A stretch of DNA of 64,000 bases from a virus. The translations under genes were made by a program, and so were the position numbers. The notes below the pieces were generated by a model. That model saw only the letters and a list, made by a program, of their open reading frames with translations. It was not told the DNA's origin and did no database searches. Below, piece by piece: positions 36,461 through 50,930 of the stretch. Where the stretch lies: positions 1-64,000 of the IMG/VR virus record IMGVR_UViG_3300035670_000033, one strand, 5' to 3'. How positions within the stretch are numbered: position 1 is the first letter of the stretch; each line of letters opens with the position of its first letter.

Positions 36461-36492
36461 CCCATAATTATAGGTAAGGGGTGTAACACGGT
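36461..36492 (-). promoter_or_regulatory. ACACCC-family promoter, copy 1 (with hairpin)
   Basis: Minus strand TTACACCC, six bases, TATAAT. The -10 is flanked by a perfect 9-bp inverted repeat (CCCCTTACC/GGTAAGGGG). Confidence 0.6.
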
Positions 36493-36495
36493 TGT

Positions 36496-37113
36496 TTAGA
36501 CCGAAACGACGCTCAGTGCCTCTTTGCATTGGACTTCAATCGCTTCAAGTGTTTCTGTGACTTGCTCGTACATTGCGTCGTAGTCTTCGTCGTCTACGCC
36601 ACTCATGCTCGGGTATTCGCCCTCAATGTCTGCAACGATCTCGCCGTTGCGGAATGCGTAACCGCCACAGAACGCCATACCGCCCTCCTCGTAAGAGAGA
36701 ACGAAGTCAAGTGTTGGGAATTGCTTAGACACCCTGCGAATGCCCTCGCCGATCGGAGACCACGCTGACATGAAAGTCATGTTCAGTTCTGTTGGTGTGA
36801 TCGTTCCGAACACGCCATCAAAATCTGACCACTTAGAACCGTAGTTCGCACAATTCCAATCGTACCAATCTGCGTATCCGTACTTTGCTTTATTTGCTTT
36901 CTGCATTTCTTCCATCTGCTTTTGCTTTTCGGTTTCACCGAAAGAACCTTTTGGTGTTGCCGAAAGATCGGATGGTGTTGGTAACAGATTGTCAAGAATG
37001 CTGAACTCGTTATATGACTCACGATCGTCACCTTGAATGATCGCTTCATGGAAACGCTTGATTTCTTTTTCGTCACCTGAAACGGTGAGGTTGTTAGTGC
37101 AATAGTTTGGCAT
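36496..37113 (-). CDS. Api92/YubB-like ferredoxin-fold protein (DUF1281-type)
   Basis: 205 residues from ATG 37113 (AAGGAGaagta upstream). MPNYCTNNLTVSGDEKEIKR is the signature start of this family, followed by NLLPTP, WYDWNCANYGSKWSD and MTFMSAWSPIGEGI. Found in plasmids and phages; no known activity. Acidic C-terminus. Confidence 0.7.
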   Translation of the reverse strand: MPNYCTNNLTVSGDEKEIKRFHEAIIQGDDRESYNEFSILDNLLPTPSDLSATPKGSFGETEKQKQMEEMQKANKAKYGYADWYDWNCANYGSKWSDFDGVFGTITPTELNMTFMSAWSPIGEGIRRVSKQFPTLDFVLSYEEGGMAFCGGYAFRNGEIVADIEGEYPSMSGVDDEDYDAMYEQVTETLEAIEVQCKEALSVVSV

Positions 37114-37154
37114 TACTTCTCCTTGTTTAGTTAGGTTTATTTGCTTGCCCAATC

Positions 37155-37180
37155 AGTATGCCTCATGGGTGTAACACAGT
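37155..37180 (-). promoter_or_regulatory. ACACCC-family promoter, copy 2
   Basis: Minus strand TTACACCC, six bases, CATACT; leader AATAAACCTAACTAAACAAGGAG-like sequence follows. Confidence 0.55.
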
Positions 37181-37341
37181 TATTTTTAGTAGGGATTTTT
37201 TATTACTCTAACATTATATATAAGACAAAAACAAAAAGCAAGTATCGGATCAAAAAACTTGGAGCGATATTTAGAGCGATATTTAGTGCTAACCCGAGAT
37301 CAGATCACACACCCCAAAGCCCCCGATCGCTGTTGAGGTTT

Positions 37342-37494
37342 ATATACGCCACCGTTCGGTTTAGATACAAGCAAACAACTCATGCTAAATAACAATCGTT
37401 GCAAACTAGACAGCCCCGCATCCCAACAGCCCACCCCGACAGCCCCGCCACTCGCGCGGAAGCGCGGGACTAATGCTCGCGAACAGTTGTTCGC
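37342..37494. repeat. Composite element: 18-bp motif, GC hairpin and second hairpin
   Basis: 18-bp motif at 37348-37364, AGCCCCGC (37441) facing GCGCGGGACT (37462), and a separate perfect hairpin GCGAAC-AGTT-GTTCGC at 37479-37494. It fills the 390-base gap between divergent genes. Confidence 0.6.
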
Positions 37495-37512
37495 TCAACT
37501 ACTATCGGGACT

Positions 37513-37899
37513 ATGACAATCTCCCGAACAGACAGATGGCAATATCGTTTCAATGCGCTCGTGCAATTCACCAACAGGACAGGTTCGTCGCTTGTTCCCG
37601 CAACACAAGTTGAGGTTTATGAGGGCAAGAATGTTGCGCTTGGTGCGTGGGTCGCATACAACCGTCAGCAATATCGTGCAGGAGAACTACCGATCGTGCG
37701 ACAACAAGCGTTAGAGCAACTTGCAGGTTGGCATTGGGAGAAGCAGAAACCTGGCAGACGCTACGACACGAAGCGAGACGCAGAGATCGCACAGCGTTAC
37801 AAGAGTGGCGAGCGTGTCGGACTGATCGCTGTTAGTTTCAATCTTTCACGGCAACGAGTTCATCAAATACTCAAGAAGGTTTCAACACCCAATGTCTGA
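37513..37899 (+). CDS. Helicase-associated-domain protein with sigma-like HTH
   Basis: 128 residues. Residues ~5-75 form a helicase-associated (HA) domain: DRWQYRFNALVQFTNRTG, VPATQVEVYEGKNVALGAWV, LEQLAGWHW. Residues ~85-125 are a region-4-like HTH (DAEIAQRYKSGERVGLIAVS, LSRQRVHQILKKV). Likely a DNA-binding regulator, and a candidate for controlling the leftward promoter family. One of the few rightward genes in this region. Confidence 0.65.
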   Translation: MTISRTDRWQYRFNALVQFTNRTGSSLVPATQVEVYEGKNVALGAWVAYNRQQYRAGELPIVRQQALEQLAGWHWEKQKPGRRYDTKRDAEIAQRYKSGERVGLIAVSFNLSRQRVHQILKKVSTPNV

Positions 37900-38242
37900 T
37901 TTCAGTAACCATGACAAGCGTGATGCTTGGAAAAAGATGAGTGAGTGGTCTCACAGCATTCCTGATGATGAACTTGACAGTCTGTTTGTTGATGAAGATT
38001 GGGAAGACGAGTGGGCTAATCTTCCGCCCGTGTTGCGTGAAACACGCAGACAGGTATTCGGAAAGTTTATATTCGCTCTGTTTGGTTTATCTGTCGGCGT
38101 TGCTTTTGTGTCGTTCTTGTTGTATCAACTTGTTCAAGCGTTGGGTGTCACCGATCTAACTTTTCGTGAGTCTGTGATCGTCACATTGTGTGTTGCGTTC
38201 ATTCGTTACATTGACGCAGGAGTAATGAAACAGATCCGATAA
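37892..38242 (+). CDS. Small membrane protein
   Basis: 116 residues. Acidic cytoplasmic N-terminus, one strong membrane helix (FALFGLSVGVAFVSFLLYQL) and a weaker second (ESVIVTLCVAFIRYI). Overlaps the HA-domain gene by eight bases. Not recognised. Confidence 0.55.
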   Translation: MSDFSNHDKRDAWKKMSEWSHSIPDDELDSLFVDEDWEDEWANLPPVLRETRRQVFGKFIFALFGLSVGVAFVSFLLYQLVQALGVTDLTFRESVIVTLCVAFIRYIDAGVMKQIR

Positions 38243-38253
38243 ACACATCAGGA

Positions 38254-38271
38254 CGCACTCTTGCGAGTGCG
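38254..38271 (+). terminator. Terminator-like hairpin after the rightward pair
   Basis: CGCACTC-TTGC-GAGTGCG, perfect 7-bp stem, 12 bases after the stop. A second hairpin AAAGGA-GAAG-TCCTTT lies ~30 bases on, before convergent genes meet. Confidence 0.5.
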
Positions 38272-38371
38272 CCCTGAGCGGAGAAGCGAAAGGTGAAAGG
38301 AGAAGTCCTTTCGTTCCTCTAGCGGTAAAGAATAACATATGAGTTATATGTCATTCTGAAGCGATCAGGTT

Positions 38372-39868
38372 TTACCCCAATCGCTTTCCGTTTAGTCGTG
38401 TATATGTTTCCTGCCACTTTCTTGGATACCAACGGTTCGGTTTCTTTCCGACCGAAAGTTGCTTCAACAGTGCAAGTCCGTCATTCACATTGTGTGCCAT
38501 AAACACTTTGTGCTTCAAGACTTCTTTTATGCAGTCCATTGCCAAGATGTCGTGGTATCCACCGTATTGACCGCCTGTGCCAAGACCGTGAACCTGACCG
38601 TCTGTAATCCACACGATCGGAGTTGATGAACGCTTGCGTTGTTTGATCGCCCAACGAATTGCTTCGCCGTCTACGCCGTTGCCACCATTCCGTTCAGGAA
38701 GTTTGTCTACCATTTTCCCATCTTTTGCAAGAATGAGAAGGTTCGGTTTCACATTGTTTCGGTCTGCTGAATAAACCGCAACAGTGCAACCTGGACTTGC
38801 TTCCGTGATGTCAAGAATGTTTTTGTTGTTGAGAGACATTGAACCTGAACCGTCAATCAAGACGATACCGCCGTTGCCTTTCTTGTATCGGTCAAACACT
38901 CGCTTCTCGGGGTCTGCAAGTGCGTTACCAATTCTGCGAGGGTTACGACCCATGTTGCTTGCAACACGCTTGCGACCGAGACCGCCATGCGCTTTGCGAG
39001 TGAGTGGGAGATTACCAACAATAAGTTTTCCCCAAGTCGGTACTGCACCGCTACCTCGTTGTGAAGGTTCAGTCGGTTTTACTTTCTTTGGGTCTGCTTT
39101 CGGTTTCTGTGGTTTATCTGTTGCACCGTTGCCGTTCTTGGTTTCTTTTTCTGCGTTGCCTTCTTGCTTCGCTTCGTTCTCTTGCTTCGCTTCGGTTTCG
39201 CCGTCCTCGTTTTCGTTCTCATCAACAGGTGGGTTTGCCAAACGATCAATCCACTCTGCAATTCGCTCTGTGTGTGCGAACCCCATTGGTGCGAGACCTG
39301 TGCGCTCATCTATTTCTGTTGAACCGAGTGTGCCTGTCTTGTGTGCTTTGACGAACTCTTTCTCCACTGCTTTCACAATGTCTCGGAGTGTTGTTCCCCA
39401 TGCACGATTTACTCTGCGTACACCTGTGAGGAAGTCTTTGCCACCACCACAAACCGAGTAACCGACTGCTGTATAAACCGCACTCGCCCAATCGCCTTGC
39501 TCTGCGACACGCATTCCTGTAGTGAGTTCGCTTCCGTCTGCCAACAGATCAACATCAAACCCTGCTTTCTTGATAAGAAAGTTCACACGAACTTCCTCAA
39601 CAACGATCAGTGCATTCTCTGTTGCGATCTTGCGTTCAATCCACTTCGGGAAGTCGTCCGCAGGTGAGAACCGTGCGTGTGCCATTTCATGCGCACGGAT
39701 TACACGATCAACTTGTTCGTCACCAACAGGAACGACCATGTGCTTTGTAACAACATTGGTCATTGGTTTGCCACGAACAGGTGCGCAAGTATCTACTTGC
39801 CATGCGCCCGAGTCTTTATCTTTGCGCCCCAACATTTCGGGGAGTGGTCTGATTTCTACTTTTTGCAT
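38372..39868 (-). CDS. HEXXH metallopeptidase-like / VWA-domain protein
   Basis: 498 residues. N-terminal part has H60-EMA-H64 with downstream E91/E92 (VVEEVRVN), the zincin layout seen in VWA-associated peptidase-like domains. A long charged linker rich in Glu, Lys and Asn (~215-275) is followed by a VWA domain with MIDAS motif DGSGSM (339-344) and later TDGQVHG. The MoxR ATPase next door makes a CobS/CobT-like or MoxR-VWA pair: the ATPase remodels a target bound by the VWA. Driven by promoter copy 3. Confidence 0.75.
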   Translation of the reverse strand: MQKVEIRPLPEMLGRKDKDSGAWQVDTCAPVRGKPMTNVVTKHMVVPVGDEQVDRVIRAHEMAHARFSPADDFPKWIERKIATENALIVVEEVRVNFLIKKAGFDVDLLADGSELTTGMRVAEQGDWASAVYTAVGYSVCGGGKDFLTGVRRVNRAWGTTLRDIVKAVEKEFVKAHKTGTLGSTEIDERTGLAPMGFAHTERIAEWIDRLANPPVDENENEDGETEAKQENEAKQEGNAEKETKNGNGATDKPQKPKADPKKVKPTEPSQRGSGAVPTWGKLIVGNLPLTRKAHGGLGRKRVASNMGRNPRRIGNALADPEKRVFDRYKKGNGGIVLIDGSGSMSLNNKNILDITEASPGCTVAVYSADRNNVKPNLLILAKDGKMVDKLPERNGGNGVDGEAIRWAIKQRKRSSTPIVWITDGQVHGLGTGGQYGGYHDILAMDCIKEVLKHKVFMAHNVNDGLALLKQLSVGKKPNRWYPRKWQETYTRLNGKRLG

Positions 39869-39928
39869 ATTTCCAACTTTCGTTTCTAGGTTTATGTCTC
39901 TTGCTTAGGGAGGCTTGCTTACACCCCC

Positions 39929-39955
39929 ACCTTACGGCAGGGGTGTAACGAGGTT
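39929..39955 (-). promoter_or_regulatory. ACACCC-family promoter, copy 3 (with hairpin)
   Basis: Minus strand TTACACCC, six bases, TAAGGT. The site is part of an inverted repeat ACACCCC..GGGGTGT. Leader TAGGTTTAT complement at 39887-39895. Confidence 0.55.
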
Positions 39956-39956
39956 A

Positions 39957-40700
39957 TTAGACCGCAACCTTGTTGATTGCGATTGCGTCTAGGACGCTTT
40001 CTGCCTGCTTGCCGAACACCATTCGTGCGCTGTCTGCGTCACCGAGTGTCTTTCGCAGTTGGTCAAACGCATAGAAGGTGCGGAGTGAGATCCTGCGCTC
40101 GCCTGCGTCTGCCATACGAACCGCATACTCACGGAGATCTGCCGACAACTTCTTGAGTGCGTCAGGGTGAGGTTGGTTGATACGGATTGCGACAGGGAAA
40201 CGATCTTTCAACGCTTCAGGAAGTTCCTCCATTGTTTCAATGTTGGTGGTCATGACAACGCTGAACCCGTCCTTTGGTGTGATCGTCCGATTGTTTTCAG
40301 GACTTTCCCACTTCGCACTTTCAGGTGAGTCAGTGAATGCGAGGAGTGTTGCGAACACATCTGCGCCTGCTTTGTCAATCTCGTCAATTACGAGACGACC
40401 GCCACGCAAACCGTCACCTTTCCACGCTGACACTGCTTTACCGTCTACCCAAGACCAACCGCCTTCGCCGTTCATCTTGTAGTGACCTTCAACTTGCGCA
40501 TTGGACATATCCTCTGTGCAGATAAGTCGGAATGCACCTGCTGTGACATCACCGTAGTTGAGACCTGCGAAAGTCTTTCCTGTTCCTGGGGGACCGAATA
40601 AGATCAAACGGTCTACGCCTGCTTTGAGTGCGTTCTCAACATCTTTCCAACACTGTGGGAGATCGTTGCGCACCTTTCCTTCTAGTACTTGCTGTTCCAT
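39957..40700 (-). CDS. MoxR-type AAA+ ATPase
   Basis: 247 residues. Walker A GPPGTGKT (36-43), Walker B LVIDEID, sensor VVMTTN and arginine finger ALKDRF are all present, so it should be active. The size is minimal, lacking a large C-terminal lid extension. Encoded just upstream of the VWA/HEXXH protein with which it probably forms a chelatase-like remodelling complex. Confidence 0.8.
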   Translation of the reverse strand: MEQQVLEGKVRNDLPQCWKDVENALKAGVDRLILFGPPGTGKTFAGLNYGDVTAGAFRLICTEDMSNAQVEGHYKMNGEGGWSWVDGKAVSAWKGDGLRGGRLVIDEIDKAGADVFATLLAFTDSPESAKWESPENNRTITPKDGFSVVMTTNIETMEELPEALKDRFPVAIRINQPHPDALKKLSADLREYAVRMADAGERRISLRTFYAFDQLRKTLGDADSARMVFGKQAESVLDAIAINKVAV

Positions 40701-40772
40701 TACTTTCCTTCTTTCTCCGAAGTTCGTTCGGACTAGTTTGCTTATTTCTAGGTTTATTTCCTTACACCCCCA

Positions 40773-40792
40773 ACATTACATTGGGGGTGTAA
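40773..40792 (-). promoter_or_regulatory. ACACCC-family promoter, copy 4 (perfect hairpin)
   Basis: Minus strand TTACACCC, six bases, TAATGT, centred in the perfect repeat ACACCCCCAA/TTGGGGGTGT (40764-40790). Leader motif at 40749-40757. Confidence 0.6.
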
Positions 40793-40802
40793 CAGGGTTT
40801 AG

Positions 40803-41210
40803 TTACGCTACTTGCGCTTCTGCTGTTGCCTTGCTGTCGGACTTTGCGCCCTTGAGTTCGGTAACACGGATTTGCTCGTATGCCGTGATCGTGGTTACTG
40901 CGTCTGCGACATCTGCTTTGATTACGCCGACTTCCACTGCTGACTTGAACTTCTTACCGTCCACTGCGGACTTGGTAACAGTCTTGAACACCTTGTCGGA
41001 AACGAGATCCTTCAAGATTTCAACGCTGTATGAAGGACGCTCGCCTTTTACGACTGCAACCTTTACACCGTCTACGACTGCGTAGTCCACGCCTTCTTTT
41101 GCGAGTTCCAACTTGAAACTTGCTTCTGCTTGTGCAAGTTCTTGCTGTGCGATCTCTAATGCTTCACGCTTCGCAAGTACTGCCTTTGCTGTTGATGTGG
41201 TTAGTGCCAT
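40803..41210 (-). CDS. Conserved small protein next to MoxR
   Basis: 135 residues. N-terminal coiled coil (LAKREALEIAQQELAQAEAS), a beta-rich middle (YAVVDGVKVAVVKGERPSYS) and an Ala-rich tail. Position next to MoxR suggests a partner or substrate of the ATPase-VWA complex. Function not known. Confidence 0.55.
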   Translation of the reverse strand: MALTTSTAKAVLAKREALEIAQQELAQAEASFKLELAKEGVDYAVVDGVKVAVVKGERPSYSVEILKDLVSDKVFKTVTKSAVDGKKFKSAVEVGVIKADVADAVTTITAYEQIRVTELKGAKSDSKATAEAQVA

Positions 41211-41253
41211 TTGATTTTCTCCTTATGTCTAGGTTTATTTGCTTCTTGCCACC

Positions 41254-41280
41254 ACTGTATATCAGGGGTGTAACACGGTT
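41254..41280 (-). promoter_or_regulatory. ACACCC-family promoter, copy 5
   Basis: Minus strand TTACACCC, six bases, TACAGT; leader motif at 41230-41238, AAGGAG and the ATG at 41210. Confidence 0.55.
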
Positions 41281-41342
41281 ATTCGTACTGACTTTCTATC
41301 TATGATAGATAGTCTAGTACCTGTTTTTGGACTTGTCAAGTC

Positions 41343-41594
41343 TTATGCGAGAAACCTCGCAATCCCTGCGTCCGTAAGGTCGTCCCCGATCTGACGCTTT
41401 GCGTCTAAGTCATTCAGGTACTCGCTGACGATCTCGCAGATTTCATCACATTGGTTCTGAATCGCTTCGTGACGCTCACGCTCGTCTGCGTCCTCTAAAG
41501 GGTTCATCACGACTGCGTACGATCTGAACGCCTGTGCGATCAACGCTTGCTCAATGCGCTCTAGTTGTGCTTCTGTGAATGTTGTGATTTTCAT
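41343..41594 (-). CDS. Hypothetical small phage protein
   Basis: 83 residues, acidic helical (FTEAQLERIEQALIAQAFRS; ICEIVSEYLNDLDAKRQI). A variant of the promoter family (TGTCACCG-N6-TTACAG) lies upstream at 41621-41640, and AAGGAG precedes the ATG. Not recognised. Confidence 0.5.
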   Translation of the reverse strand: MKITTFTEAQLERIEQALIAQAFRSYAVVMNPLEDADERERHEAIQNQCDEICEIVSEYLNDLDAKRQIGDDLTDAGIARFLA

Positions 41595-41697
41595 TTCTTA
41601 CTCCTTGTTTGTTGGTGTACCTGTAATACGCACGGTGACACGGAATGTGTGACAATCTTTTTTTGGACAGAGTCCAAAAGAGGTTGTGAATAACTCG

Positions 41698-41836
41698 TTG
41701 AGGTTTATATACGCCACCGTTCAGGTTGGGAGATGACAGTTCGGATCGCCGATCTCCGTGCGCCTGCGCCTGAGAGCCCCGCGTTGTTTACATCTTCCCG
41801 CAAGCCCCGCACCGCATCTTCGGGCGCGGGACTAGG
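41698..41836. repeat. Composite element: 18-bp motif and GC hairpins
   Basis: AGGTTTATATAC joined to the 18-bp motif (41713-41730), then AGCCCCGCG at 41775 and AGCCCCGC (41803-41810) facing GCGCGGGACT (41824-41833). Confidence 0.65.
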
Positions 41837-41872
41837 CAAAAATAAAGGGGAGGCTTTCGCCCCCCCCCTTGG

Positions 41873-42013
41873 TTAGTCCCAAGTGATCAACCCGTTTTCT
41901 GCGATGTAGGTTGGGAGTCCCATACTTTTCAGTTCCTCGTATGTGAAAGGAACTTCTTGGTTCTTGTTGATGTGATCAACATATCCCCTGTTTCTGAGGG
42001 CTTCGTCTGTCAT
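41873..42013 (-). CDS. Small hypothetical protein
   Basis: 46 residues from ATG 42013 with AGGAG upstream; the longer frame lacks a ribosome site. Polar, with FTYEELKSMGLPTYIAENGL. Preceded by promoter copy 6 and the TACAACTACTAG leader variant. Confidence 0.5.
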   Translation of the reverse strand: MTDEALRNRGYVDHINKNQEVPFTYEELKSMGLPTYIAENGLITWD

Positions 42014-42054
42014 TGCTTCTCCTATGTGTCTAGTAGTTGTATCTCTTATACGCA

Positions 42055-42080
42055 ATATTAGAGCAAGGGTGTGACACAGA
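42055..42080 (-). promoter_or_regulatory. ACACCC-family promoter, copy 6
   Basis: Minus strand TCACACCC, six bases, TAATAT, then the ATACAACTACTAGACAC leader and AGGAG. Confidence 0.55.
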
Positions 42081-42182
42081 TAAATAGAAAACTTTCACGG
42101 CCGTGTGACATCACGCTTTATGTGACCGTGTGCGTTATATGTATGTAGGCAAAACCGCCTACCAAAGCGTTAGGAGAAGTAG

Positions 42183-42326
42183 TTGGAAATCAACTATGAA
42201 GCAATAAAAGAAATGACCCGTGCGTTGAAGCAAGAAATTGCAAGAAACGGGATCAACGAAAACAATTCGCAGTGGGTTCACGAAATGCGAGTTGCGATTG
42301 AACTTCGTGAAAGCGGTGTCTACTAG
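42183..42326 (+). CDS. Small rightward protein in the leftward block
   Basis: 47 residues, TTG start after TTAGGAG. Helical (YEAIKEMTRALKQEIARNGI), ending ELRESGVY. A strong terminator follows the stop by 15 bases and TATATG-like -10 sequence lies upstream (~42133), so this is an independent transcription unit. It could instead be a small RNA gene with a coincidental frame. Confidence 0.5.
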   Translation: MEINYEAIKEMTRALKQEIARNGINENNSQWVHEMRVAIELRESGVY

Positions 42327-42340
42327 AACCGCCAACAAGA

Positions 42341-42373
42341 CCCCAACTCGGAAACGGGTTGGGGTTCTTTTTT
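42341..42373 (+). terminator. Rho-independent terminator
   Basis: CCCCAACTCG-GAAA-CGGGTTGGGG stem with one G-T wobble and a GAAA loop, followed by TTCTTTTTT. The clearest intrinsic terminator in the window. Confidence 0.85.
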
Positions 42374-42378
42374 GCCAT

Positions 42379-42438
42379 AGCCCCGCGATCTGATGCGGTT
42401 GCCGCACAGCCCCGACATCCGATGCGCGACGCGGGACT
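42379..42438. repeat. GC hairpin repeat
   Basis: AGCCCCGCG (42379) and AGCCCCGA (42408) facing GCGGGACT (42431-42438). Same family as at 41803, 44406 and others; here without the 18-bp motif. Confidence 0.5.
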
Positions 42439-42489
42439 GAGACAAAAGAAAACCCGCAGAAGATGGTTGGTCTCCTGCGGGTTCTTGAT

Positions 42490-42699
42490 TTAGTTGGTTG
42501 TTTCGCGGACTATCTGAAAACGATCGCCTTCTTCGGTAATCATTCCGAGAGTGCTTCCGTTGTCCCATTTGATGTGAACCGTGCCAAGTCCGTCAATGTG
42601 GGTTACGAGACCTTCGTCGCCCCACTTCAACCTCGTGTACGGGTCGCCTGACCGCATAAACATTACTCGCTTACCGACATAACTTTCTTTGTCTGACAT
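42490..42699 (-). CDS. DUF4314-type SH3-like protein
   Basis: 69 residues. VGKRVMFMRSGDPYTRLKWG, GDEGLVTHIDGLGTVHIKWD and NGSTLGMI are the family's signature. Known from phages and plasmids without an assigned function; probably a small beta-barrel. Start overlaps the upstream stop. Confidence 0.75.
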   Translation of the reverse strand: MSDKESYVGKRVMFMRSGDPYTRLKWGDEGLVTHIDGLGTVHIKWDNGSTLGMITEEGDRFQIVRETTN

Positions 42700-42938
42700 T
42701 AGTAGACCCCGAAAGATATTCCGTCTGATGTCATTCCGAACAACGCACCTGCGTCGTTCCCTTCTGTATCCATTGACGGGTAGAGGATTGTTCCGCTAGA
42801 GAGAACGAGAACCATAGGGATTTCTCGTTTGCGCCAACCTTCTTTGTTCATTTCCGCTTTTGTCATTGGACGAATGTCAATGATTGTTGATCCGATCATT
42901 GAGTCGTCTACGGTTTCTGCTTCGTATGTACTGCTCAT
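42699..42938 (-). CDS. Hypothetical small phage protein
   Basis: 79 residues, beta-rich (IIDIRPMTKAEMNKEGWR; MVLVLSSGTILYPSMD). The order MTKAEMxxEGW..P.VL.LS.G..LYPS.D..GN recurs in small phage proteins. GGAG and the leader motif (42956-42964) lie upstream. Confidence 0.55.
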   Translation of the reverse strand: MSSTYEAETVDDSMIGSTIIDIRPMTKAEMNKEGWRKREIPMVLVLSSGTILYPSMDTEGNDAGALFGMTSDGISFGVY

Positions 42939-42980
42939 GTGCTTTCTCCTTTGTTTAGGTTTATATGAAGCGTCTCGCTG

Positions 42981-43232
42981 TTACACGGACGCTTTTAGTG
43001 GTGACTTGATGTCTGCTAGTTCACGCTCTAACTCTGCACCTTCGCAGTTGTTCATAAGGTCAATCAAATTATCTAACCATGTTGCAACGGACGCAGGAAG
43101 TGGTGTCGTGCTGAGATAGTTGGTGTACTTGTTGAGTACGATGTCAATCTCGGTAACGAGTCCTGCTCCTTCAACATTGTTTGTGATGTCAAGGATTTCT
43201 GTGATTAGGTTGATGTAACTTTGCTTTTCCAT
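42981..43232 (-). CDS. Hypothetical small phage protein
   Basis: 83 residues from ATG 43232 (GAGG site upstream). All-helical, acidic, no Cys in the chosen frame except one near the end. Two bases after the upstream stop. Not recognised. Confidence 0.5.
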   Translation of the reverse strand: MEKQSYINLITEILDITNNVEGAGLVTEIDIVLNKYTNYLSTTPLPASVATWLDNLIDLMNNCEGAELERELADIKSPLKASV

Positions 43233-43234
43233 TT

Positions 43235-43465
43235 TTATTTCCTCTCGTTTTGTTTTACAAATCTGACACACTCTTTTTTCGTGGACGCATTGAACGCCTG
43301 ATTGCCTGTTGCGATCTCAATAACAACCCACCAATCGGTTTTGGTTTCGTGAAACCAAACATCATTGAACCCTCTTTGCATAAACCGTTGGTGAAACCTT
43401 TCGCATTCAGGGTGTTCGCACGGTGACTCTTGGATCTCTTTTTCTATCCTGTAAGTGCTGTTCAT
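43235..43465 (-). CDS. Hypothetical small phage protein
   Basis: 76 residues with two Cys and several His near the start (SPCEHPECERFHQRF), possibly a metal site, and a beta-rich Trp segment. Under promoter copy 7. Confidence 0.5.
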   Translation of the reverse strand: MNSTYRIEKEIQESPCEHPECERFHQRFMQRGFNDVWFHETKTDWWVVIEIATGNQAFNASTKKECVRFVKQNERK

Positions 43466-43495
43466 TTCTATCTCCTTGTCTAGGTCTATATAGAT

Positions 43496-43520
43496 ATGTT
43501 ACCCAAGCGGTGTAGCAGGG
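43496..43520 (-). promoter_or_regulatory. ACACCC-family promoter, copy 7
   Basis: Minus strand CTACACCG, six bases, TAACAT. Most divergent box of the set; leader variant ATAGACCTAGAC follows. Confidence 0.45.
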
Positions 43521-43655
43521 TTATTCGCCCTGCCACCTGAACCCACGACACTCTCGCTTACTGCGCTTCTTGCGCTTGTCTGCGACACGCTGTGCCTTCA
43601 GGATATTGCGATCTGCAAACGCCTGACGATCTGCCTCACTCCATTGCTTGCTCAT
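43521..43655 (-). CDS. Small basic protein
   Basis: 44 residues, highly basic helix (VADKRKKRSKRECRGFRW). Starts in a TAATG overlap with the zinc protein upstream. Possibly nucleic-acid binding. Confidence 0.5.
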   Translation of the reverse strand: MSKQWSEADRQAFADRNILKAQRVADKRKKRSKRECRGFRWQGE

Positions 43656-44137
43656 TAGAACCTTCTCCTATTCTTTGTCCATTCGTGACAACTATGTTTT
43701 GCTTGCTCATCTACTTGCTCTTGTGACATTCCTGCCTTGATCAACGGACGGTATCCGCATGAGTTGCACGAAACGCCGAGGTACTCGGTGACACCTTGTG
43801 CGATCTGATATGCGTGAACGGTCGTGTTGCCGTGTGTGCGCTCATTCAGATAAACCGTGATGAACACTTCGCAATTCGCACAACCGATGATCTTGACATC
43901 TTTGCCGTCTGTTGGTGCTTGCTTTGGAAAGAAATCAAACTTGAAGTGTTTGCAGGTTTCGCACTTGTCATCAAGTTTGCGAACCTTTGCCACTTCTACT
44001 GCACCTTCGGTTACTGCTTTCCAATGTGCAGGAAGTATCCCTTTCTTTTGTGCTTGCTCAACGAGGTGGTTGCGAACCGCCCATTGTGCGTAAGGCTTGG
44101 CTACTTTTGTTGCCTTTGCCTTTTTGATCTTTGCCAT
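43655..44137 (-). CDS. Multi-zinc-finger protein
   Basis: 160 residues from ATG 44137 (AAGGAG upstream). Basic Lys/Ala-rich N-terminus, then CETCKHFKFDF, GCANCEVFI and SCNSCGYRP, with a later Cys and His. Three CxxC pairs suggest two zinc sites. Under promoter copy 8. Role unknown; nucleic-acid binding is likely from the basic start. Confidence 0.6.
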   Translation of the reverse strand: MAKIKKAKATKVAKPYAQWAVRNHLVEQAQKKGILPAHWKAVTEGAVEVAKVRKLDDKCETCKHFKFDFFPKQAPTDGKDVKIIGCANCEVFITVYLNERTHGNTTVHAYQIAQGVTEYLGVSCNSCGYRPLIKAGMSQEQVDEQAKHSCHEWTKNRRRF

Positions 44138-44179
44138 TTCTAGTACTCCTTGTTTAGGTTTATCTAACTCGCTAATTAC

Positions 44180-44208
44180 ACTATATACGCAGGGTGTCAC
44201 ATAGTGTG
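44180..44208 (-). promoter_or_regulatory. ACACCC-family promoter, copy 8
   Basis: Minus strand TGACACCC, six bases, TATAGT, with CACACT as the -35-like hexamer upstream. Leader motif at 44154-44162. Confidence 0.6.
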
Positions 44209-44300
44209 TGATCTTTTTAGATCTAAATAATAAATATACTTCTAATATATCAGGGGCATAATATCCCCAACCTTGTCCACAGCCTGTGGATAACTAGATC
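44206..44300. other. Candidate origin: AT-rich stretch with two facing DnaA boxes
   Basis: TTGTCCACA (44273-44281) and, three bases on, the complement of TTATCCACA (44285-44293) form a palindromic pair of DnaA-type boxes. About 60 bases of AT-rich sequence lie to the left (TAAATAATAAATATAC), as expected of a DNA-unwinding element. No gene overlaps. Confidence 0.5.
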
Positions 44301-44339
44301 ACGCAACTCCATTTAGCACTAAGTCAAACGATCAGCAGG

Positions 44340-44436
44340 CTATATACGCCACCGTTCAAGTTGGGTGATGTCTTGATGTCTTGATGTCGGATCGCCCGAT
44401 CCCATAGCCCCGCGCCATCCGTCGCACGGCGGGGCT
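44340..44436. repeat. Composite element: 18-bp motif and perfect GC hairpin
   Basis: 18-bp motif 44348-44365, a short tandem (TGATGTCT twice), then AGCCCCGC (44406-44413) facing GCGGGGCT (44429-44436), a perfect 8-bp stem. GCGGGGCT recurs at 44457. Confidence 0.65.
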
Positions 44437-44505
44437 AACAAGTCTCGCATCCGTTCGCGGGGCTGTCGCCGTCGGATCTTCGGTTTGTTGGGATAGTGTT
44501 GGGAT

Positions 44506-44706
44506 ATGGCTATGCCCTTCAGTCCCAAGCATTCCACTAACTTGCAGATCGGCGAAGTTATTGACGCGCTCGCGCAAACTGAGCCCGATCTATTTGGTGA
44601 AGGTAACGCGACACTAATGCCCGTGCAATACTCTGATCGTCTCGCGTTAGTGATATGCGATCGTTCGCTAGGGGAGTCCATAAACGCTAATAGCCCGCCT
44701 GCCTAA
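44506..44706 (+). CDS. Hypothetical rightward protein
   Basis: 66 residues. Polar start (MPFSPKHSTNLQIGEVIDAL), central PDLFGEGN and a hydrophobic beta strand. Runs against the surrounding genes and ends inside a hairpin. The ribosome site is weak (GTTGGGAT), so confidence is limited. Confidence 0.4.
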   Translation: MAMPFSPKHSTNLQIGEVIDALAQTEPDLFGEGNATLMPVQYSDRLALVICDRSLGESINANSPPA

Positions 44707-44720
44707 CGGCGGACGGGCTA
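44691..44720. terminator. Bidirectional terminator-like hairpin
   Basis: TAGCCCG (44691-44697) and CGGGCTA (44714-44720) with further G-C pairs inside, lying between convergent genes. Confidence 0.5.
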
Positions 44721-44736
44721 CGACACTGCGGACTAT

Positions 44737-44979
44737 TTACTTATTGCGTTGCGACTCTGCCCATAGGTGACGGAATACGAACGCAGGTATCGCGTTGCCG
44801 TCATCCGTGAAGTAGTAACCATTGTCAAGTGTTGAATGATCGGGGATAGTGACGATCCGTCTATTGCTAACGCGACCACGATACCAATATCCAATGATAA
44901 AGATATTGTGATCGCTTGTCGTCTCCCATTGCCAACGCGAAGTGCCGACATATCCCTTATAGGTGAGTTGCGTTGTCAT
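44737..44979 (-). CDS. Hypothetical small phage protein
   Basis: 80 residues, beta-rich with many aromatic residues (IFIIGYWYRGRVSNRRI). Its start overlaps the upstream stop. Not recognised. Confidence 0.5.
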   Translation of the reverse strand: MTTQLTYKGYVGTSRWQWETTSDHNIFIIGYWYRGRVSNRRIVTIPDHSTLDNGYYFTDDGNAIPAFVFRHLWAESQRNK

Positions 44980-45191
44980 TACTCAACCGCCTGAATCATC
45001 GCGAAGATAGACGGAGACGCCGTAGTGATTCCGTGCGCGTAATCCGTGACTAGGTGCAACATATAATTGTCGCGTTCGTCCTGATCCCATGTCTCTGCCC
45101 AAGTGGTGCGATCGTTGTCGTCCCAATTCATTGTTGAGTTAATGAATATCTCTGCCTTCGTTGGTGGAGTTGAGTTGAGTGTGTATCTCAT
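44979..45191 (-). CDS. Hypothetical small phage protein
   Basis: 70 residues, acidic with several Trp (NSTMNWDDNDRTTWAETWDQ). No Cys. Followed by its partner in a TAATG overlap. Not recognised. Confidence 0.5.
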   Translation of the reverse strand: MRYTLNSTPPTKAEIFINSTMNWDDNDRTTWAETWDQDERDNYMLHLVTDYAHGITTASPSIFAMIQAVE

Positions 45192-45240
45192 AATTTGCCC
45201 TTCGTGTAGTAGTTGTGTTGGTAATCGGCTTGCGCCTTGT

Positions 45241-45296
45241 GCCTAGTTGGAATTGAATCCCACGCCGAACGCGCTAGGCGACTCACCTAAGTGAGT
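45241..45296. other. Compact folded element (three-way junction plus hairpin)
   Basis: GCCTAG (45241) pairs with CTAGGC (45274-45279); inside are TTGG..CCCA-type and CGC-CGAAC-GCG hairpins. Next to it ACTCAC-CTAA-GTGAGT (45281-45296) is a perfect hairpin, four bases after the stop of the leftward gene. May be a terminator plus a processed RNA element. Confidence 0.4.
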
Positions 45297-45299
45297 GTG

Positions 45300-45749
45300 T
45301 TAGATCGCGACCGCTTCGCTGTAACGAAGTGTGCCATCGCCACCCATTGCGATCTCGGTCGCGCGTAACCATAGGTCGCGCACGACTTCATTACCGCGTG
45401 CCCACGAAGTTAAACATCCGAGAACTTCAGTCTCAAACTCCGCGAGTGCTTTATCCGAGTATCGCTTAACCGACTTACGGATAAGAGTTGCGAACGGATA
45501 ATTTACGCGATCGTAAACACCAACCAATTCACTTGTCTGATCGTAGTGTCGCAACGCGATGGACGACATGAGTTGCTTATTATCCGCATCGTGCCAAATT
45601 GTGATACGCACTAAAGTGCCCATTGGTCTGCCATCCACTTCAACCGAGTCACAAGTCGGACTCTTAAGTGTGTAGGTGATCTCGCGATCTTTAACCTTGC
45701 GTGTCGCTTGCGCTAACACTGTATTGTGACTAACAATTAAATTACTCAT
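45300..45749 (-). CDS. Hypothetical phage protein
   Basis: 149 residues, alpha/beta, with REITYTLKSPTCDSVEVDGR and KRYSDKALAEFETEVLGCLT. GGGAG lies upstream and promoter copy 9 drives it. Not recognised. Confidence 0.5.
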   Translation of the reverse strand: MSNLIVSHNTVLAQATRKVKDREITYTLKSPTCDSVEVDGRPMGTLVRITIWHDADNKQLMSSIALRHYDQTSELVGVYDRVNYPFATLIRKSVKRYSDKALAEFETEVLGCLTSWARGNEVVRDLWLRATEIAMGGDGTLRYSEAVAI

Positions 45750-45796
45750 TATTTATCTCCCGTGTCTAGTTGGTTTATGTTTATTACTTACTATCT

Positions 45797-45826
45797 ATAT
45801 TACGCAACGGGTGTTGCATAGTGTGA
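45797..45826 (-). promoter_or_regulatory. ACACCC-family promoter, copy 9
   Basis: Minus strand CAACACCC, six bases (GTTGCG), TAATAT; CACACT 17 bases upstream of the -10. Confidence 0.6.
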
Positions 45827-45836
45827 CATTGCCTGA

Positions 45837-46112
45837 TTAGTCATGATCTGCGAGTTTGACCCAATGCATACCGACCCAACCATCAGGTGTGCGCATTGAG
45901 TTCAGGTGTCCGCCTTCAATGATTGAACGGATAAGACTGAACAATTCCCGCGACAAGTCGTCTCGCGTAATATCCATTGCGTCTACCCATTCATTGTCGT
46001 AACGATTCTGCGTAAGATCGTCAATTACTGATCCAACGATCTCCATGCCGATCGCGCCGATACCGAGATAATTCTCTGCCAATACTTCGCTTAGTGATTC
46101 ATCTAGTGCCAT
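45837..46112 (-). CDS. Hypothetical small phage protein
   Basis: 91 residues, acidic and helical, ending with a conserved-looking PDGWVGMHWVKLADHD. No Cys. Under promoter copy 10. Not recognised. Confidence 0.5.
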   Translation of the reverse strand: MALDESLSEVLAENYLGIGAIGMEIVGSVIDDLTQNRYDNEWVDAMDITRDDLSRELFSLIRSIIEGGHLNSMRTPDGWVGMHWVKLADHD

Positions 46113-46158
46113 GTCTATTCCTTGTCTAGTAAGTGTAAGCGTTATTGCTTACTCCCCA

Positions 46159-46188
46159 ATAATACGCAATGGGTGTTGCAGAGTGTGA
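46159..46188 (-). promoter_or_regulatory. ACACCC-family promoter, copy 10
   Basis: Minus strand CAACACCC, six bases (ATTGCG), TATTAT; CACACT 17 bases upstream. Nearly identical to copy 9. Confidence 0.6.
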
Positions 46189-46199
46189 CATTGCCATTC

Positions 46200-46447
46200 T
46201 GCAATATCGCGTATCCGCTATATCCGTGATCCGATATCTACGATCCGATATACGGTTTATATGCGCTACCGTTCAGGTTGGGGACTTGGATCGGCGATCC
46301 GCCCGCCCGCGTGCGCCCGCGAGCCCCGCGCGCTAAATGGGGGCGCGGGACTGTCAAGTTTTTTGGGGCAAACAGTAGCGTTTGCAGTGTCGCCTTACCC
46401 TCCTGTGACGCATATGAGCCCCGCGTGTTTACACGGGATGCGGGGCT
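46200..46447. repeat. Non-coding region with 18-bp motif and two GC hairpins
   Basis: Short CGATAT/CGTATC repeats (46205-46255), the 18-bp motif with one change (46265-46282), AGCCCCGCGC (46322) facing GCGCGGGACT (46343), and a perfect AGCCCCGC (46417)/GCGGGGCT (46440) hairpin. Open frames here are GC-driven and not convincing. 46448-46700 shows nothing clear. Confidence 0.6.
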
Positions 46448-46700
46448 GTGGGCAGGGGAGCCAGAGCCGCGGGTTGGGGAAGCCGCTGAGCGGCTTCGCC
46501 GTCGGTATCTGTATCTGAACTGAGACAATTACGAGAACCTGCCGCGCACTCAAACAATCGTTGAACACTATTCTGAACGCGTTACCGACATTGCAGTGGT
46601 TAGAACTCGCGTGAGAAGTAGCGTCCATGATGTGTGAGTGGCACGGTGCGCTCAACCTAGATAGCCGTGAGACGCACTACAAGCCCCCTAGAAACGCAAA

Positions 46701-46726
46701 AGCCCCCACCCCGAAGGGTGAGGGCT
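46701..46726 (-). terminator. Terminator of the DUF6011 gene
   Basis: On the minus strand AGCCCTCACCC-TTCG-GGGTGGGGGCT followed by TTTTGCG, 22 bases after the stop. Stable stem with a UUCG loop. Confidence 0.7.
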
Positions 46727-46747
46727 CGCGCCTGCGTTAGGAACTAA

Positions 46748-47236
46748 CTAGATGTTCCTTGCGCACACGGGTCCGATACCCCGTGCTACCGAGTTTGGGT
46801 CGGAAAGTTCCGCACCACACACGCAACAGATACCGAACTCATGCCCTGCCTCCTGCGCCTGTGCGAGGGTCATGCGATCCTCTGCGGAGAGACGGAACAA
46901 CCCGCCACGCTCGTAGGTGAAACGCTCTGCCTTGACAGGTGCGAGAGGGTTGTAACGCATTGCGTACAGGTTGCCTGACTGCCGTGAACGCTTTACACGG
47001 AACACAACGCCGTCCTTGCGGTACATACCGATCTCGGTAACAGGGTTTGCCTGTACGACCCGTGCAGGACGATTCATGTTGCGCTCAACCGCCTGCAACT
47101 GCTTGTCGGATAGACGACCGAAACGATCGTAACCATTGAGGACGCTCGTAAAGAATGCATTGCCAAGTGCGTTGTCACGCAGGAACTGAACTACACGCTC
47201 CTCACGGGTGAGTGGTGGAAGTGTCTGAACTGACAT
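46748..47236 (-). CDS. DUF6011-type zinc protein
   Basis: 162 residues. The C-terminal FGICCVCGAELSDPNSVARG plus IGPVCARN is the family signature and a likely zinc site. The N-terminal half has REERVVQFLRDNALGNAF and YDRFGRLSDKQLQAVER. Common in actinophages with no known role. Has its own promoter (copy 11) and terminator. Confidence 0.75.
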   Translation of the reverse strand: MSVQTLPPLTREERVVQFLRDNALGNAFFTSVLNGYDRFGRLSDKQLQAVERNMNRPARVVQANPVTEIGMYRKDGVVFRVKRSRQSGNLYAMRYNPLAPVKAERFTYERGGLFRLSAEDRMTLAQAQEAGHEFGICCVCGAELSDPNSVARGIGPVCARNI

Positions 47237-47277
47237 AGGTAACTCGCTTTCGTTAGTAGGTTTATTTGCTTACCCTG

Positions 47278-47306
47278 AATATACGCACAGGGTGTAACAG
47301 AGTGTG
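47278..47306 (-). promoter_or_regulatory. ACACCC-family promoter, copy 11
   Basis: Minus strand TTACACCC, six bases (TGTGCG), TATATT; CACACT 17 bases upstream of the -10. Leader motif at 47257-47265. Confidence 0.65.
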
Positions 47307-47390
47307 CGATACCCGATCGGGGGCGCAGATCGCAGGCACGGCGTTCACCGCAACCTGACAAACCGATTCCGTTGCATGGCTGAGACTTAT

Positions 47391-47492
47391 ATCCGCCACC
47401 GTTCAAGTTGGGGACTCAGATCCGCGATCCGCCTCCGCGCTACGCGCCCGCCCGCCCCCACAGCCCCGCGAACTACGCGGTCACGCGGGACT
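47391..47492. repeat. Composite element: 18-bp motif and GC hairpin
   Basis: 18-bp motif 47395-47412; AGCCCCGCG (47462-47470) facing CGCGGGACT (47484-47492). Confidence 0.65.
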
Positions 47493-47804
47493 ATCAGCAT
47501 CAGCAGAAAGAAGAAGACAAGCCCAGTTGGGAACGTTCCGGCTGACGTCCCGGCGAACGTCATCAAAAACGTTACTTTTTACGCGTTTTGAAAAACATCA
47601 ACTTTTGCTAATTTTTCTGGTTTTTTGAAAGCCTTATACCATAAGGGTTTTACGGGGTGACTTATTGAGGTTTGTAGAAGAAACGAATAAACTGTCAGAA
47701 AGAACAACTTTTTGGGACTCCGGCTGCCGGGCTGGTCTTCAGCCAGTTCCGAAGATGGGCTGATAGCCCCGCGTTATTGTCTGCGCGGAAGTTTGACGCG
47801 GGAC
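47493..47804. other. Gene-free stretch with one more GC hairpin
   Basis: No convincing gene. It holds GAACGTTC (47530) and CGAACGTCATC (47553), an AT-rich stretch, and AGCCCCGCG (47765) facing CGCGGGACT (47797-47805), which runs to the end of the next leftward gene. Confidence 0.4.
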
Positions 47805-48005
47805 TTAGAAGAGAGTTGGCGCATCGTCAAATGCGTTGCGGGTTTCGGTGCAGATTTTGTGTGCGTAACCGAGTGGTGCTGAAGGGTTCCGAGGCGTCCC
47901 TAAGTATCTGCCGTCTTTGTGTTCTAACCAAGCGACAACCTTGACGCAGTATGCCGTGTTCAGGGTGTCTAGCCCTGTGTTGCAGATGGAGCAGGTGACT
48001 TTCAT
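47805..48005 (-). CDS. Small zinc-binding protein
   Basis: 66 residues. TCSICNTGLDT near the start, then AYCVKVVAWLEHKDGRYLG and HKICTETR, a plausible CxxC..HxxC site. Starts one base after the upstream stop. Confidence 0.55.
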   Translation of the reverse strand: MKVTCSICNTGLDTLNTAYCVKVVAWLEHKDGRYLGTPRNPSAPLGYAHKICTETRNAFDDAPTLF

Positions 48006-48206
48006 TTATGCGGTTGCTTCTGCCTTTAGTGGTGCGACGATCACGGAAAGTAGATCTTCTACAGGGAACTGTAGGTCACTATGCGACCTGATGTCAAGGA
48101 GTAGATCAACCATTTCCGATGATGATACGAGTTCACGACCCGAGATCTGTTTGATCGCGCTGTCAATGAGTTCGGTGATGGTGCTAATTTTTTGTTCTGT
48201 TTCCAA
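48006..48206 (-). CDS. Hypothetical small helical protein
   Basis: 66 residues from TTG 48206, chosen because AGAAAGAAG and a CACCTAG leader-like sequence lie just upstream; a TTG at 48230 is the alternative. Acidic, all-helical (STITELIDSAIKQISGRE). Not recognised. Confidence 0.45.
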   Translation of the reverse strand: METEQKISTITELIDSAIKQISGRELVSSSEMVDLLLDIRSHSDLQFPVEDLLSVIVAPLKAEATA

Positions 48207-48384
48207 GAGACTTCTTCTTTCTAGGTGCAATAGTTGGTAGATAGTTTATCGCATAATCGTAAGTATGACGCAGACAAACGATGTGGTCGTTGTACACCGA
48301 GAGTGCTGTAGAGCACCCTTCTAGTGCACAACGACGAACGCCGTTGCCATCTGTTTTGGGTTTGAGAACGGTGTTACTCTCCAA
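48184..48384 (-). CDS. Small CxxxxC..CxxH protein
   Basis: 66 residues, TTG start. RRCALEGCSTAL and HIVCLRHTYDYA form a zinc-finger-like set, followed by a basic tail. Overlaps both neighbours slightly. Start uncertain. Confidence 0.5.
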   Translation of the reverse strand: MESNTVLKPKTDGNGVRRCALEGCSTALSVYNDHIVCLRHTYDYAINYLPTIAPRKKKSLGNRTKN

Positions 48385-48823
48385 GTTTCGCCCACTCTTC
48401 GTCGCCGATGAGTTCTGATGCTTGCAGTATTGCTTCCTCTATATCAAAGTGCACGCAGTTCAACCAACCCGCTTCACCAACTGTGTCGTCGTCTGCGTAC
48501 AGATCAAACCATGCGTTGTTGTCAAACTCAATGCGTTCTTCGTCTATTGCTTTCTGCAACTGCTCATCTGTTTCAATGCCTACTTCTGCGAGACGGTCGG
48601 AGTATCTGATCACCTGATAGTTCGCATTGTCAATGCGCGCTTCTTTGCTGTCCCAAACATGGAGACGCATTTCGCCATCGCAGTAAACGCTGATGGTGCG
48701 GTCTTTGTAGGTAACCCGTGCCACGAGTTGGTGTGCATTTGCGTCCCAAACATAGAACGCAGGGTCTTTGCAGAACTCTCGCTCATGCGGTGACTGTTCT
48801 CGGGTGATAATTAGGTCTTGCAT
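48374..48823 (-). CDS. Hypothetical phage protein
   Basis: 149 residues, acidic. Beta-rich N-terminal half (FYVWDANAHQLVARVTYKDR), helical C-terminus. AAGGAG upstream and promoter copy 12. Not recognised. Confidence 0.5.
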   Translation of the reverse strand: MQDLIITREQSPHEREFCKDPAFYVWDANAHQLVARVTYKDRTISVYCDGEMRLHVWDSKEARIDNANYQVIRYSDRLAEVGIETDEQLQKAIDEERIEFDNNAWFDLYADDDTVGEAGWLNCVHFDIEEAILQASELIGDEEWAKLGE

Positions 48824-48853
48824 TACTTCTCCTTGTTTCTAGTAGTTGTACCA

Positions 48854-48880
48854 AGAGTAATACGAGGGTGTTGTACGGTT
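48854..48880 (-). promoter_or_regulatory. ACACCC-family promoter, copy 12
   Basis: Minus strand CAACACCC, six bases, TACTCT; leader variant TACAACTACTAG follows. Confidence 0.5.
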
Positions 48881-49082
48881 ACGCCTTTCCTAACAACGCC
48901 AATGCTTCATCTATTTCTATGGTGGTCTTGATGGAGTGATCGCCGTCGTATGCAACGGTGACATAGTTTGCGCCAACGGACGGGTTCTCTGCGAGATCGC
49001 AAATAGACCCGTACGCTTGCGCAACTGCGTCTAAATGGTTGTCTGCTTCATAGACCATTGACCAAGTGACGATGTACTGCAT
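48879..49082 (-). CDS. Hypothetical small phage protein
   Basis: 67 residues from ATG 49082, which overlaps the upstream stop (TAATG). YIVTWSMVYEADNHLDAVAQ is a beta-alpha start common to small phage proteins. Confidence 0.5.
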   Translation of the reverse strand: MQYIVTWSMVYEADNHLDAVAQAYGSICDLAENPSVGANYVTVAYDGDHSIKTTIEIDEALALLGKA

Positions 49083-49294
49083 TAGACGGACAGACTTTCC
49101 TGCCATGAAAACATTGGTGAAACACCGAACTCGTCTTTTACGGAACGGGTGCTGACTTCAACATCAACTTTGTATTGCTCTAACGATGCGAGGATATCTG
49201 CAAGTTCCGCCTTGTCGGTTGCGATGCGGTAACGCAACTCGTGCATACGGGTATTTAGGGTCTCAAATGTTTGCTTTTTGTTACGGAGTTTCAT
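49082..49294 (-). CDS. Small coiled-coil protein
   Basis: 70 residues. Heptad-rich helix (FETLNTRMHELRYRIATDKA) over most of the length. TAATG overlaps at both ends. Not recognised. Confidence 0.5.
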   Translation of the reverse strand: MKLRNKKQTFETLNTRMHELRYRIATDKAELADILASLEQYKVDVEVSTRSVKDEFGVSPMFSWQESLSV

Positions 49295-49680
49295 TACTTA
49301 TCTGCCTTTCGGTCTGCTTGTGGGTCTCTTATTTCATACTGACGACCTTCTCGTTTTACGAAGATGTCAGGACGATCTTGAACGATCTTGCGGACGGTTG
49401 CTTCTGATATGTCGCCAATTTCCGCAAGTTCTTTTACTGTCACCAAGTCAAAGACATGGTTTTTGCACCAAGACAAGATGTCTTGCTTGCCGTCTTGTGC
49501 CGTGCGCCAACCTTCACTTGGTTGTGCCTGTGCCAAGAGTTCTGCCTTGATGTTGTTTGGTACGAGATCACGGACACGCTTAGGTACTTGCGCAACCCAA
49601 ACAGGTTTCCCATAGGTGTTGATCGCTTCAGTAACTTCGCGTATCGCGTCGTCTAGTTGTGTGTCTACTTCGTTGCTCAT
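49294..49680 (-). CDS. Winged-helix-like phage protein
   Basis: 128 residues from ATG 49680. The C-terminal half looks like a wHTH: FDLVTVKELAEIGDISEATV, RKIVQDRPDIFVKREGRQYE. The N-terminal part has VAQVPKRVRDLVP. Possibly a regulator. Promoter copy 13 begins only eight bases upstream, so the transcript may have a very short leader. Confidence 0.55.
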   Translation of the reverse strand: MSNEVDTQLDDAIREVTEAINTYGKPVWVAQVPKRVRDLVPNNIKAELLAQAQPSEGWRTAQDGKQDILSWCKNHVFDLVTVKELAEIGDISEATVRKIVQDRPDIFVKREGRQYEIRDPQADRKADK

Positions 49681-49687
49681 AGTGTCT

Positions 49688-49715
49688 ACTATACGCAACG
49701 GGTGTGACAAAGTGT
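49688..49715 (-). promoter_or_regulatory. ACACCC-family promoter, copy 13
   Basis: Minus strand TCACACCC, six bases (GTTGCG), TATAGT; CACACT 17 bases upstream of the -10. No ATAAACCTA leader follows, unlike most copies. Confidence 0.6.
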
Positions 49716-50871: not shown

Positions 50872-50930
50872 CTTTGAGACACCCCACCCATATAATGGTA
50901 CTTGTAAGATAAACCTACTAAATAAGGAGA
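50868..50930 (+). promoter_or_regulatory. Strong rightward promoter with leader motif
   Basis: TTGACT (50868), 17 bases, TATAAT (50891), then GATAAACCTACTAA and AAGGAG. It fixes the geometry: the leader motif starts 11 bases after the -10, close to the expected transcript start. Confidence 0.8.

Follow-up and report, generated by a model that had tools for sequence, protein, structure and literature searches.

A repeated promoter element in a freshwater actinobacteriophage appears to match a DNA-damage promoter signal of Ilumatobacteraceae

The virus record IMGVR_UViG_3300035670_000033 comprises 138,071 bases, the first 64,000 of which constitute the window analyzed here. A region of this phage carries 14 copies of an element, ACY-N-TGY-N-ACACCC, placed exactly six bases ahead of a TANNNT -10 sequence; the region is deemed early because it contains many short genes. 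Since the same signal is located ahead of recA and other repair genes in Ilumatobacteraceae, this freshwater actinobacteriophage appears to borrow the DNA-damage response of its host instead of supplying an activator of its own. The early-type genes are quite probably under the control of a host damage promoter of the PafBC type; the promoter activity, the dependence on PafBC, the timing and the host family are what we infer from the sequence.

A fixed-spacing element in the phage and its relatives

Inspection of the window confirmed all 13 minus-strand sites that an earlier note had described from the sequence, with a distance of exactly six bases between the box and TANNNT at each of them; one coordinate is corrected, as the first -10 starts at 36467 and not at 36461. 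The original pattern matches 13 times, always on the minus strand, and extending the search from the window to the full 138-kb record adds no match on either strand. The claim that this spacing exceeds chance withstands a shuffled-sequence control: dinucleotide shuffles of the 30–51.5 kb region yield on average 0.36 matches (maximum 2), and shuffles of the whole genome on both strands 2.14 (maximum 6). A 14th site, missed earlier, was identified on the plus strand at 50871-50896, and its leader ATAAACCTACTAAATAAGGAG is the same as that of other sites. A position-weight-matrix scan, which had been proposed as a check, ranks the 14 sites first in the genome; in leave-one-out scans 13 of the 14 keep a top or near-top rank genome-wide, the site at 48854 being recognized by its core alone. 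Pattern and matrix scans of the 138-kb genome gave nothing convincing for the box at a different spacing or at other locations. Every site occupies a gap directly ahead of a gene that is read from the same strand, in agreement with the intergenic placement first noticed, and the distance from the -10 to the start codon is 7–72 nt (30 nt for the site at 43496 when the open reading frame (ORF) start at 43465 is taken).

Using the AAA ATPase encoded downstream of the site at 40773 as a query, we collected 69 phage loci, and the same element was found in about 22 closely related phage contigs. No near-identical phages were found in GenBank, where the AAA protein matches distant phages only. Across all relative loci, the spacing of six bases occurs in 260 cases, and none of the other spacings between 2 and 10 exceeds 20 cases; the proposed architecture, a box between -35 and -10 at rigid spacing, is borne out as far as sequences can tell. 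The refined element ACY-N-TGY-N-ACACCC-N6-TANNNT, derived from 125 non-redundant sites, spans positions -32 to -7, and its upstream columns are conserved at these sites (A-32 in 79%, C-31 in 76%, and Y-30 in 81%). The CACACT and ATAACC sequences that had been noticed upstream of some sites fall at -35 to -30 and belong to the element itself. Its two halves (NACACT or NWAACC, then NACACC) read approximately as a direct repeat whose period is 10 bp. The ACY resembles the last bases of a -35 hexamer, yet TTGAC is present in just 13 of 95 sites. A fixed element upstream of a TANNNT -10, in the absence of a consensus -35, is one of the marks by which a PafBC (RecA-NDp) promoter is recognized, and the 14 sites are predicted to be sigma-A-type promoters that have the element in place of the -35.

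An inverted repeat of varying sequence flanks the -10, which lies in its loop, at 36467-36492, 39929-39954, and 40773-40798 and in some relatives of group A. Such repeats with a stem of at least 6 are found around the -10 at 17 of 95 sites (P ~0.0003), that is, at a minority of sites.

The same element in Ilumatobacteraceae and the individual phage promoters

In a first search of bacterial metagenome-assembled genomes (MAGs), six matches to the element were obtained versus none for a reversed-pattern control. The family concerned is Ilumatobacteraceae, to which both genomes G028 and G033 belong. The shorter pattern TGTNACACCC-N6-TANNNT was identified in 105 of 151 Ilumatobacteraceae genomes, some of which contain more than 10 matches, and the reversed pattern gave a handful only. 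With ACY included, the complete 14-base element was identified in 5 of the 297 genomes searched from the phylum Actinomycetota, 16 of its 18 matches being located in three Ilumatobacteraceae genomes (0 for the control). When the gap was allowed to vary from 2 to 10, nearly all host matches among those listed had a gap of 6, and one had a gap of 2.

ACACC-N7-TANNNT precedes all 25 Ilumatobacteraceae recA genes whose start could be read, and across all other distances from 2 to 11 there is one case in total. Among the first eight host loci, recA and a LysM gene lie downstream of several sites; in a sample of 46 sites, the downstream genes encode RecA (7), and DUF222 or HNH proteins (8 and 7), with RadA, SSB, PD-(D/E)XK and DEDD nucleases, LysM, and GyrB among the further products. 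The location of the element ahead of the bacterial recA and other DNA-repair genes is a second mark of PafBC (RecA-NDp) promoters. A LexA-type box, GAAC-N4-GTTC, is present within 100 bp of 35 of 83 host sites versus none of the 14 phage sites.

The host and phage signals can be compared directly. A matrix built from the 25 host recA promoters only and applied to the 138-kb phage genome places phage sites in all of its top ten ranks and two more of the 14 within the top fourteen, and in six relatives whose promoters are of other types the same matrix finds no match above the same threshold. Agreement between host and phage extends to columns outside those used for selection (A-32, C-31, C-18, and G-13), and both share the TGCAACACCC variant and a leaderless 7-nt arrangement. 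By these sequence comparisons the phage element and the host element are the same element; it would not be a phage invention, but an Ilumatobacteraceae damage-repair promoter signal that is separate from the LexA box. An Ilumatobacteraceae exonuclease gene of the RNase_T/DEDD type that carries the element lies ~0.9 kb from pafBC (L302, L317, and a match in G059).

The first 13 predicted phage promoters lie on the minus strand, and their ranks in the host recA matrix scan are given in brackets. P1 (36467..36492; ACCGTGTTACACCC-N6-TATAAT; rank 3) is upstream of the gene 36075-36416, and P2 (37155..37180; ACTGTGTTACACCC-N6-CATACT) of the DUF1281_C gene 36496-37113. P3 (39929..39954; ACCTCGTTACACCC-N6-TAAGGT; rank 1) precedes a CobT/VWA-like gene for 498 aa at 38372-39868, and P4 (40773..40798; ACCCTGTTACACCC-N6-TAATGT; rank 4) the CobS-like AAA ATPase gene at 39957-40700, both having the inverted repeat around the -10. 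This CobT/VWA-like and CobS-like AAA pair (38372-40700, minus strand) is conserved in nearly all relatives. Further on, P5 (41254..41279; ACCGTGTTACACCC-N6-TACAGT; rank 5), P6 (42055..42080; TCTGTGTCACACCC-N6-TAATAT; rank 9), and P7 (43496..43521; ACCCTGCTACACCG-N6-TAACAT; rank 10) are located upstream of the genes 40803-41210 and 41873-42013 and the ORF 43235-43465, respectively. They are followed by P8 (44180..44205; ACTATGTGACACCC-N6-TATAGT; rank 12) ahead of the gene 43655-44137, P9 (45797..45822; ACTATGCAACACCC-N6-TAATAT; rank 8) ahead of 45300-45749, P10 (46159..46184; ACTCTGCAACACCC-N6-TATTAT; rank 7) ahead of 45837-46112, and P11 (47278..47303; ACTCTGTTACACCC-N6-TATATT; rank 6) ahead of the DUF6011 gene 46748-47236. 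The weakest promoter, P12 (48854..48879; ACCGTACAACACCC-N6-TACTCT), upstream of the gene 48374-48823, matches in its core and is weak by matrix. P13 (49688..49713; ACTTTGTCACACCC-N6-TATAGT; rank 2) precedes the gene 49294-49680, and since only 7 nt separate its -10 from the ATG, a leaderless transcript is predicted; this arrangement agrees with the suggestion that transcripts would start ~7 nt past TANNNT. The plus-strand P14 (50871..50896; ACTTTGAGACACCC-N6-TATAAT; rank 14) is located upstream of the gene 50935-51267 and has a near-consensus -35, TTGACT.

Candidate readers of the element

The mycobacterial LexA-independent damage promoter consists of the motif tTGTCRgtg, 8 nt, and TannnT (PMC5656591). 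PafBC, which is triggered by single-stranded DNA (ssDNA) bound to its WYL domains, sits between such a promoter and region 4 of sigma-A, with PafB reading the -26 motif, a mode termed sigma adaptation (PMC11804915). The phage/host element shares with the mycobacterial promoter the TANNNT, the replacement of the -35 by an element at about -26, the TGT at -28 to -26, the rigid spacing, and the downstream recA and repair genes, often with LexA boxes. Genes for such a regulator are present as well: an adjacent PafBC-type WYL gene pair was identified in all 11 Ilumatobacteraceae genomes tested, and in the two genomes examined further the G050 genes and a single fused gene of G028 match by sequence the PafB and PafC of 7p5x, 9fnd, and 6sj9, so that the bacterium encodes both PafB and PafC, a third mark of this promoter type. 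No WYL protein was found in the four phages tested (G000, G006, G009, and G010).

Several observations weigh against PafBC as the reader. After the TGT, the phage and host sequences continue with NACACCC and the mycobacterial motif with CRGTG, so that ACACCC-N6 stands in place of RGTG-N8; an additional ACY is present at -32 to -30, and, unlike in mycobacteria, 14 copies without LexA boxes are located on a phage genome. Because the bases past the TGT differ, the element is at best a lineage variant of the mycobacterial one, and the case for PafBC is built on position, regulon, and gene presence. Host and phage also differ at -25, where C is found in 68% of host sites but in 14% of phage sites, with the TGT conserved in both. 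Relatives of the CobT-like gene occur in 14 of 222 Ilumatobacteraceae genomes, the host being assigned from the element; the CobS/CobT-like copies examined in MAGs have no box. In addition, work cited in PMC5656591 proposed or reported ClgR as a protein that recognizes the P1 motif of mycobacteria.

Nevertheless, the element is most likely the form that the mycobacterial PafBC (RecA-NDp) promoter takes in this lineage. Its -26 element would be read by ssDNA-activated PafBC, placed between the promoter and region 4 of sigma-A. Infection or replication would expose ssDNA, and the PafBC and RNA polymerase of the host would then transcribe the phage genes. The phage has its 14 copies ahead of an early-type region and without LexA operators, and PafBC-driven transcription would therefore be expected once ssDNA is exposed. 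A different host factor, ClgR-like or a hitherto undescribed activator, might control the repair regulon of the family instead, and the sequence 3′ of the TGT, dissimilar to the mycobacterial motif, speaks for such a factor; we regard it as improbable, since the position, the spacing class, the target genes, and the conserved tandem PafBC-type genes all fit PafBC.

The earlier note took a phage-encoded factor to be the probable reader of the box. The best reading is still a protein that acts with RNA polymerase and recognizes the box, but its phage origin is not upheld: in Ilumatobacteraceae, where a phage factor is unavailable, this element precedes recA and other repair genes at an identical spacing, which points to a host factor. 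A precedent for a phage activator is found in T4, where MotA boxes centered at -30 replace the -35 (PMC6755090); as in T4 middle promoters, where sigma is appropriated, the present box is coupled to a sigma-70-type -10 and occurs in many copies per genome. However, MotA and AsiA are phage proteins, whereas the element described here belongs to the host. The phage does encode proteins that might act similarly. One is a plus-strand helicase-associated/helix-turn-helix (HA/HTH) protein (37513-37899), in which a helicase-associated domain is fused to a sigma-70 region 4-like HTH, and which is oriented opposite to the early genes. Two WhiB proteins are encoded on the plus strand at 30809-31123 and at 66331-66738 of the record (L009:2331-2738), and a winged-HTH (wHTH) protein of 128 aa on the minus strand at 49294..49680, downstream of P13. 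Members of the wHTH family occur in group A and across most of the other classes of boxes, but two phages of the TTGACA type lack them. None of these named candidates tracks the type of box. The HA/HTH protein is universal, and its LSRQRVHQI helix is almost invariant in nearly all groups, including phages with TTGACA promoters; WhiB is universal whatever the box; and the wHTH recognition helices are near-identical in phages with different boxes. Small zinc-ribbon and other phage proteins of unknown function, compared by presence and DNA-binding helix, do not track the box either. A phage-encoded activator of the MotA kind, to which the similarity with the host would be secondary, is thus very improbable. 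Within the WhiB pair, one protein is strongly conserved across relatives, and the other, encoded next to the primase-helicase, has a variable basic C-terminal tail.

The idea that the box is an operator, at which a repressor bound between -35 and -10 would silence the early genes as in immunity systems, draws on the 14 copies in one region, the inverted repeats around the -10 at a minority of sites, and the near-consensus -35 of the site at 50896, but it is scarcely credible against the rigid spacing and the usual absence of a -35, which indicate an activator-type element, against the position of the host counterpart ahead of repair genes, where a separate LexA box is often present, and against the lack of a tyrosine integrase in the record, in which serine recombinases and repressors were not searched systematically.

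Two further systems resemble the element in part. In Streptomyces SARP/AfsR promoters, the element likewise covers the -35 and the spacer, with its center at about -29.5 and direct repeats spaced about one helical turn apart, and acts by sigma adaptation (PMC10936776); however, these are 11-bp repeats with the 3′ repeat 8 bp from the -10, and no SARP was found among the phage proteins scanned. The mycobacteriophage repeats known as the 17-bp palindromes of Cluster O and the SAS/ESAS of Cluster K are also present in many copies, many of them intergenic, in actinobacteriophage genomes, but they are palindromic or associated with start codons and have no described fixed distance ahead of a -10.

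Other box types in related phages and implications for phage biology

Further phages with the same gene module either carry repeated boxes of other sequence, again at fixed distances, or have plain CTTGACA-N17-TANNNT promoters. The boxes of the relatives L054, L056/L057, L050, L076, and L053 are CTAATAACGGA, CCATTAGTACC, TAATAGCC, GAAATCTGAAGCACC, and GCGCCGAAGGAT, respectively, all at fixed spacing and some leaderless, and the classes of boxes also include GATTCTAAAG and CTAATAACGG. In the L054 and L056 groups, the start codon follows the -10 by 6–7 nt at nearly every site, as at P13, which supports the prediction of real promoters with leaderless transcripts starting ~7 nt past the -10. One of the loci, L160, is Actinomycetia phage DSL-LC01 (OQ999401.1), with 30 copies of CTAAAG-N4-TANNNT in 50 kb. 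The ~30 predicted promoters of this phage at 22–44 kb have the form GATTCTAAAG-N4-TATAAT, and most of them continue with AGAATC, forming an inverted repeat around the -10; the paper describing DSL-LC01 never uses the word promoter (PMC10611076). Another box of the relatives, CTAATAACGGATACNNT, is absent from the 297 Actinomycetota genomes, and borrowing from the host is thus seen for the ACACCC class only.

Phages that exploit LexA-controlled genes are well known. In the literature that we searched, no phage is described as having placed its early region under the damage activator that acts independently of LexA in Actinobacteria. We lean toward the view that a group of large freshwater actinobacteriophages runs a genome-scale early program, with ~10–26 promoters per phage, on the ssDNA-triggered, LexA-independent PafBC of the host; ssDNA made during infection would be the on-switch, and different activators may have been borrowed by each of the relatives that carry other boxes at fixed spacing. 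If this is true, the damage response of the cell would be a transcription switch of the phage, which predicts an interplay between the timing of infection, genome degradation, and ssDNA-producing defenses. The element would also provide a DNA-damage promoter for Ilumatobacteraceae, an aquatic family, and a sequence-based means to suggest hosts of uncultured phages.

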